Positions 28,292 to 29,731 of a DNA stretch of 64,000 nt are shown here, piece by piece. Made by a program: the position numbers and the translations under genes. The stretch's first letter is position 1, and every line of letters starts with the position of its first letter. Origin of the DNA: Staphylococcus saprophyticus subsp. saprophyticus ATCC 15305 = NCTC 7292 (GTDB taxonomy: Bacteria > Bacillota > Bacilli > Staphylococcales > Staphylococcaceae); assembly GCF_000010125.1 (NCBI RefSeq), contig NC_007350.1, forward strand, positions 744,001 through 808,000, read 5' to 3'. The notes beneath the pieces were generated by a model, which was given only the letters and a program-made list of their open reading frames with translations, was not told the DNA's origin and did not search any database.

Positions 28292-28363
28292 TGTTTGTTC
28301 TATAAGGTGATTTTTCATATAATAGGAAAAATAGAATTTTTATATGAGATAAGGAGTATCTAA

Positions 28364-29731
28364 ATGGCAGAGGAAACAAGTTATTTTTGGTTAAACTGCG
28401 GTTATAATCGCTGGAACCATAATGAACCAATGGTTGGACAAACAACATTATTTGAATCAGGTGCACAATTTAATCCCTCTCAAGGTTTCCGTTCATTTAA
28501 ACAGGCCAAAGTTGGTGACCAGGTCATCTTTTATCAAGTGCAGATGGACACTGGTTTATTAGGATTTGGTGAAATCACAAGTGTACAAACGGGTGCTCAA
28601 AATAAAATTCGCGTTCATTTTGAATTACAAGAACAATTAAAGCCGTTAACAGCTGATTATTTAAAAAGAAGTGAACAGTTAGAATTTAGAATGGGTAATA
28701 TGAAAGAAACATTATTTAATCAAATTACTAAAGAAGAGTATGAACTAATCGTTAGCTTAGGCAAAGGCCAAACTAAAATACCTAGATACTTTTTTATATC
28801 TGAGGAACAAGAATTTGAACCAGAATCATATAACACGATATTTACACATACGTATAATGGTATAAAAAGAAATGGTTATCATTTTTATACACAGTTAGAA
28901 ATAGGGGACCAACTTGTTTTTTATAATAAAAAACGAGAGCAATCGGTCATTGGCGTTGGTGAAGTGAGTAAACATATACATGAAAAGCCACCTATTCCTG
29001 GTAGAACTAATAGTACGGCTATTGAAGTATATTTTGAAAAAGAAATTGAACCTGTCTCATTAAGTACTTTGAATAAGCATCCTAAATTAAAAAATCTTTA
29101 CTACTTACAGGAAAATGCAAAACAAGCGATTGCAAGTATGTCACAAACGCAATTTGAATCTATACTTGAAATGAGTGCGAATGATGGTTTGAAACCACAA
29201 TTTGAAGCCGTGCAAAGCGATAATGTGATAGATAAGCCAGCAGAAGATTTGAAACCATTTATTCTGCTTGTAGTAGATAAAGGAGAAGGATTAAAAGCGG
29301 CAGAAGACTTATTGCAAAAAACAAATGCGAATCCAGTTATTACTTCTGGGCACCCGGATTTCACAGAAGACATGCTTTATGGAAAATATTTACCAAATGA
29401 GACGGGCGCTTTATATTATAGAGAAGGTTTTATAACGAATCTCATGCCTCGAAAAGATAAAAGTTATTTAGTTATAGATAATTTTAACCGTATAGATCCT
29501 GATATTTTTCAAACATATATCAATGTGTTGGAAGGCTATGAGATGACGTTACCACGTTATAATAAAGATGGTACTATGGTTAAATGGTCTAGAAAAAAAG
29601 ATTCGTTTTATCATTTTAATCCGAATTGGCATATTGTCGCTATCACGTATGACAGTTTAAATGAAATTAAACAAAAATACACAGAACAGTTTCTAAAATA
29701 TACTAGAATTGTTAAAGTGAACCAAGATTAA
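28364..29731 (+). CDS. Tandem EVE-domain protein with degenerate McrB/AAA-like C-terminus
   Basis: A 455-residue protein with three parts. Residues about 5-135 form one EVE-like (PUA-fold) domain: YFWLNCGYNRW, GDQVIFYQV, GLLGFGEIT. Residues about 140-275 repeat the plan: RYFFISEE, GDQLVFYNKKREQSVIGVGEV. EVE domains bind modified bases in DNA or RNA. Residues about 300-455 resemble the AAA_5/McrB ATPase core: ALYYREGFITNLM, then YLVIDNFNRIDPDIFQTYINVLEG at the Walker B place, then WHIVAITYDSLNEI and LKYTRIVKV. No Walker A GxxGxGKT is present, and the catalytic glutamate of IDEINR has become Asn. It therefore looks like a pseudo-ATPase. AAGGAG lies before the ATG. No mcrC or methylase is adjacent. 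Function unknown. Confidence 0.75.
   Translation: MAEETSYFWLNCGYNRWNHNEPMVGQTTLFESGAQFNPSQGFRSFKQAKVGDQVIFYQVQMDTGLLGFGEITSVQTGAQNKIRVHFELQEQLKPLTADYLKRSEQLEFRMGNMKETLFNQITKEEYELIVSLGKGQTKIPRYFFISEEQEFEPESYNTIFTHTYNGIKRNGYHFYTQLEIGDQLVFYNKKREQSVIGVGEVSKHIHEKPPIPGRTNSTAIEVYFEKEIEPVSLSTLNKHPKLKNLYYLQENAKQAIASMSQTQFESILEMSANDGLKPQFEAVQSDNVIDKPAEDLKPFILLVVDKGEGLKAAEDLLQKTNANPVITSGHPDFTEDMLYGKYLPNETGALYYREGFITNLMPRKDKSYLVIDNFNRIDPDIFQTYINVLEGYEMTLPRYNKDGTMVKWSRKKDSFYHFNPNWHIVAITYDSLNEIKQKYTEQFLKYTRIVKVNQD

Follow-up and report, generated by a model that had tools for sequence, protein, structure and literature searches.

The gene at positions 28364-29731 (+ strand) of the window, the 64,000-nucleotide stretch of Staphylococcus saprophyticus DNA analyzed here, is very probably pcdA, a single-copy core gene of the Staphylococcaceae coding for an early factor of the divisome. 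Its open reading frame starts with ATG, has a ribosome-binding-site-like AAGGAG upstream (28351..28356, + strand), and encodes a protein of 455 amino acids with two EVE domains followed by a degenerate McrB-type AAA+ core. Judged by sequence and gene order, it is orthologous to the gene of S. aureus PcdA (SAUSA300_2094), a protein presented in a preprint (PMC10602043) and later in Nat Microbiol 2024 9:2997, and hence already known. The suggestion of an earlier note, that this could be a system not yet described, is thereby overtaken. What is new here is the family-wide residue pattern presented below, while the gene itself adds one more member to the family.

In SAUSA300_2094, according to its description, two EVE domains precede an AAA+ domain of the McrB family whose Walker A motif is degraded and which has lost the Walker B Glu and the C-terminal helical bundle; no McrC accompanies it (PMC10602043). 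Four pcdA primer sequences given in the same publication were present at one staphylococcal genome locus (L016), and the protein encoded there is 79-80% identical to the window protein. The gene order of an annotated S. aureus record, czrB-czrA-SDR-pmi-EVE protein-DCC-dps-deoD-deoC-pdp, also matches the window, where the neighbors of pcdA are housekeeping genes and a yeiH-type transporter gene adjoins it. Residues published for the S. aureus protein are kept at the same number in the EVE domains (R16, E31, Y57, Q60, K114, Y187 and K253), while K313, D374, T430 and R450 correspond to K311, D372, T428 and R448 of the window protein. The window protein shows the domain order of PcdA, its degraded motifs and lost lid, orthology with synteny, and a family-restricted distribution. 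Its nearest named relatives are from Staphylococcus sp. GSSP0090 (98% identity), S. edaphicus (95%) and the xylosus/equorum/cohnii group (90-91%), which would place the host in the S. saprophyticus group.

The domain anatomy was resolved by Pfam, alignments and structure comparison, and bears out the two EVE units and the McrB/AAA_5-like third part that had been proposed from the sequence. Pfam EVE matched the full protein with an E-value of 8e-14. EVE-1 (residues ~5-138, 28376..28777, + strand), which carries the predicted FtsZ-facing residues R16, E31 and Q60, matched only weakly by itself (0.0036) but has EVE fold matches and is the most conserved part of the protein, while EVE-2 (residues ~139-272, 28778..29179, + strand) by itself reached 1e-10. 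A variable linker follows (residues 273-294, 29180..29245, + strand), with no invariant position and with different lengths among the orthologs. The remainder (residues 295-455, 29246..29728, + strand) is an AAA+ core of the McrB family that is degenerate and lacks the C-terminal lid; Pfam AAA_5 matched it over residues 313-401 with an E-value of 5e-5, or 9e-6 when the C-terminal part was searched alone. Since a sequence/profile search of the PDB returned weak EVE matches and nothing else, the AAA+ part had to be assessed by structure comparison. The AlphaFold model of the 455-residue protein (mean pLDDT 80) matched the EVE proteins 2gbs, 1zce and THYN1 with 5mC DNA, as well as the AAA+ ATPases NorQ, CbbQ and MCM, and the modelled C-terminal domain of a Macrococcus ortholog (pLDDT 90, pTM 0.84) matched the McrB structures 6ut3, 6ut6 and 6hz4. 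NCBIfam has no model for the protein, and PADLOC gave a single weak match, PDC-S02, spanning EVE-2 and the linker.

How the ATPase motifs were lost can be read from an alignment of PcdA with three intact McrBs from other Bacilli. Walker A, GPPGTGK[S/T] in these, has become VDKGEGLK, within the remnant VVDKGEGLKA that includes K311 (29270..29299, + strand). Walker B, IIDEINR, has become VIDNFNR, within the remnant LVIDNFNR, where D372 is kept and Asn replaces the catalytic Glu (29468..29491, + strand). Both changes had been noticed in the earlier reading and are upheld by this alignment. The consecutive Arg fingers have changed from FMRRF to FLKYT, and the chain of PcdA ends at the point where the AAA+ lid starts in the intact proteins. 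T428 (29645..29647, + strand), the equivalent of the S. aureus 'sensor Thr' T430, is placed adjacent to sensor 1 in this alignment and not at it, and R448 (29705..29707, + strand), the equivalent of the 'putative Arg finger' R450, lies alongside the Arg-finger pair without coinciding with it, both placements being alignment-dependent. Neither a P-loop (GxxxxGK[ST]) nor a Walker B of hydrophobic residues followed by Asp-Glu was found in the C-terminal part of any of 87 PcdA orthologs (63 from Staphylococcus, 16 from Macrococcus/Macrococcoides and 8 from Mammaliicoccus). As both are missing throughout, the loss is ancestral to the Staphylococcaceae and has been kept as a loss, which is the outcome the earlier note had named as support for its reading. 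In about half of the 16 Macrococcus/Macrococcoides proteins the Walker B Asp-Glu reads Glu-Asp (e.g. LIIEDIEQ), a swap and not a simple loss. Motif loss is not to be equated with an inert protein, given that purified S. aureus PcdA still hydrolyzes ATP and GTP slowly, with a kcat of ~0.9 per min (PMC10602043).

A McrB-family core fused to EVE specificity domains is what a working type IV restriction subunit with a distant McrC, or another nuclease, would possess. The window protein, however, has neither the GxxxxGK[ST] nor the hhhDE motif of an active McrB, in common with all 87 orthologs, and McrC is missing as well: no mcrC lies nearby, and no match to the McrC-type domain PF10117 was obtained anywhere in the 2.58-Mb genome. 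Together with a core-gene distribution and stable synteny, which are unlike those of a defence gene, and with the finding of no relative in viral contigs, this makes a restriction role highly improbable. The earlier suggestion that the protein derives from type IV restriction and was then domesticated is upheld.

pcdA was intact and single-copy in 108/108 Staphylococcaceae genomes, although its single frame was reported as two matched pieces in some divergent ones, whereas its profile matched in none of 49 genomes elsewhere in the order. Sixty-five named loci with pcdA belonged to Staphylococcus, Mammaliicoccus and Macrococcus/Macrococcoides only, and the same restriction to Staphylococcus and its sister genera is stated in the literature (PMC10602043). 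The gene order around pcdA is stable across Staphylococcus; beyond that, the S. saprophyticus group shares the yeiH-pcdA pair with Macrococcus, and Staphylococcus shares the pcdA-DCC pair with Mammaliicoccus. The conservation of the gene and its neighbors that the earlier note had asked about is thus in place. Against six close relatives, dN/dS of pcdA was ~0.03, an approximate ratio because of high synonymous divergence, and points to purifying selection; the lowest values in the protein, 0.008-0.016 among close relatives with unsaturated synonymous sites, were those of the AAA+ part. The vanished catalytic motifs might bring to mind an EVE-McrB pseudogene in decay, but this is refuted by the selection test, the intact copies in all 108 family genomes also speak against it, and its probability is negligible.

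At the 5' end of the gene, the first 50 codons (window 28364-28513) had a synonymous divergence of 0.19-0.21, compared with a mean of 0.35, in a comparison of 15 S. saprophyticus-group species, possibly reflecting a constraint on translation initiation. For EVE-1 as a whole, a circular-shift test of lower synonymous divergence was not significant (0.17).

In phage and plasmid collections, S. aureus pcdA was found only in records resembling pieces of chromosome, the one further match being a distant Halalkalicoccus protein (21%, annotated as DUF3578-containing). Two records named 'Staphylococcus phage', OR845009.1 and OR850242.1 (SA 1306 Kay and SA 1298 Kay), carry the gene and look like host chromosome deposited as phage. 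Similarly, the 256-kb S. aureus 'plasmid unnamed2' (NZ_CP077935.1) holds glmS, czrAB, pcdA, deo genes and rpoE, and at least that part looks like chromosome labelled as plasmid. A profile search of 400 Bacilli genomes found no EVE-EVE-McrB intermediate; outside the family it returned only three proteins, matched in the AAA+ part, all of them intact McrBs with P-loops. A conserved three-gene cluster of Bacilli was also seen (L190:5722-11305 and L191:5931-11512), made up of an McrB that is intact but has an N-terminus other than EVE, a protein downstream of it with PD-(D/E)xK-like nuclease motifs by eye, and a phospholipase-D-like/DEAD helicase. This cluster looks like a restriction-type defence island.

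In S. aureus, deletion of pcdA makes successive septa non-orthogonal (PMC10602043). The protein is found at the future division plane earlier than FtsZ and EzrA, also in anucleate cells and independently of the nucleoid. It binds DivIVA and FtsZ directly, bringing FtsZ to the orthogonal plane of division, and its AAA+ core mediates self-association (PMC10602043). The PcdA-FtsZ interface was derived from an AlphaFold-Multimer model together with a triple mutant (PMC10602043). FtsZ and DivIVA genes are both present in the S. saprophyticus genome, and at about 80% identity and with full conservation of the published residues we infer, with some force, that the window ortholog works in division as its S. 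aureus counterpart does. Transferred from that species, the mechanism would be that DivIVA, located where the next division is to take place, recruits PcdA, which would assemble there via its AAA+ core, and that EVE-1 would bind unpolymerised FtsZ, giving a Z-ring roughly orthogonal to the previous septum.

The earlier note had instead favored a domesticated reader of modified bases, perhaps in RNA or damaged DNA. In such a reader, EVE would bind the modified nucleotide, with the AAA+ core, now dead, serving only as a scaffold. Both EVE domains are real, their fold matches include THYN1 bound to 5mC DNA, and S. aureus mutants in the pocket residues Y57, K114, Y187 or K253 have a deletion-like cell size (PMC10602043). 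Against this, anucleate S. aureus cells still have correct PcdA rings, and the direct partners of the protein are FtsZ and DivIVA (PMC10602043). Sister genera moreover have replacements at three of these four pocket positions, though all four residues are present in the window protein: K114 by Thr/Ser and Y187 by Leu in Mammaliicoccus, and K253 by Asn in Macrococcus. The reader hypothesis is not supported and is improbable.

In the family-wide alignment of the 87 orthologs, conservation of the residues probed in S. aureus is uneven. Invariant positions number 32/134 in EVE-1, 14/134 in EVE-2 and 6/161 in the AAA+ part. R16, Y57 and Q60 are invariant in 87/87, and position 31 is Glu or Asp. As EVE-1 already has 32 invariant positions, the conservation of the three predicted FtsZ-interface residues is not statistically remarkable, and is no strong evidence by itself. 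Residues of the nucleotide site are replaced by genus: K313 is kept in 48/63 Staphylococcus proteins, whereas most of those from Macrococcus have lost it, Glu takes the place of D374 in 14/16 and Lys that of R450 in 16/16 Macrococcus/Macrococcoides proteins, and T430 is Cys in 8/8 Mammaliicoccus proteins. With these residues replaced in the sister genera against a near-constant EVE-1, its predicted FtsZ-facing residues included, the nucleotide switch, which does matter in S. aureus PcdA, would not be the conserved core of the protein and is perhaps dispensable there, as is suggested but not proven. Tentatively, and with the odds somewhat against it, PcdA of Macrococcus/Macrococcoides and Mammaliicoccus may be an FtsZ adaptor that does not need nucleotide hydrolysis. 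The prediction from the family alignment is that hydrolysis would be a feature of Staphylococcus and not of the ancestral core of PcdA.

Compared with S. aureus PcdA, the window protein has the same domain order, nearly the same length (455 versus 457 residues), all published functional residues, the same gene neighborhood and the same single-copy core status. It differs in being two residues shorter, which shifts the AAA+ numbering by two, and in the yeiH-type gene beside it, which was not listed beside pcdA in the S. aureus record that was read. The EVE-McrB protein of EVE-McrBC type IV restriction (PMC7641849) likewise combines EVE specificity domains and an AAA+ core of the McrB family in one chain, but retains the Walker A, Walker B Glu, lid and McrC partner that the window protein lacks. 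An ancestral EVE-EVE-McrB protein very probably lost all of these before the family radiated and became a structural protein. The paper on S. aureus PcdA, which also reports a McrB tree, describes another degenerate McrB-family protein, CTTNBP2 of animals, as binding a tubulin-type cytoskeleton (PMC10602043); that case, its likeness being taken from the same description, is independent and eukaryotic. PcdA clearly exemplifies how the motor of a restriction system can become a cell-division protein.
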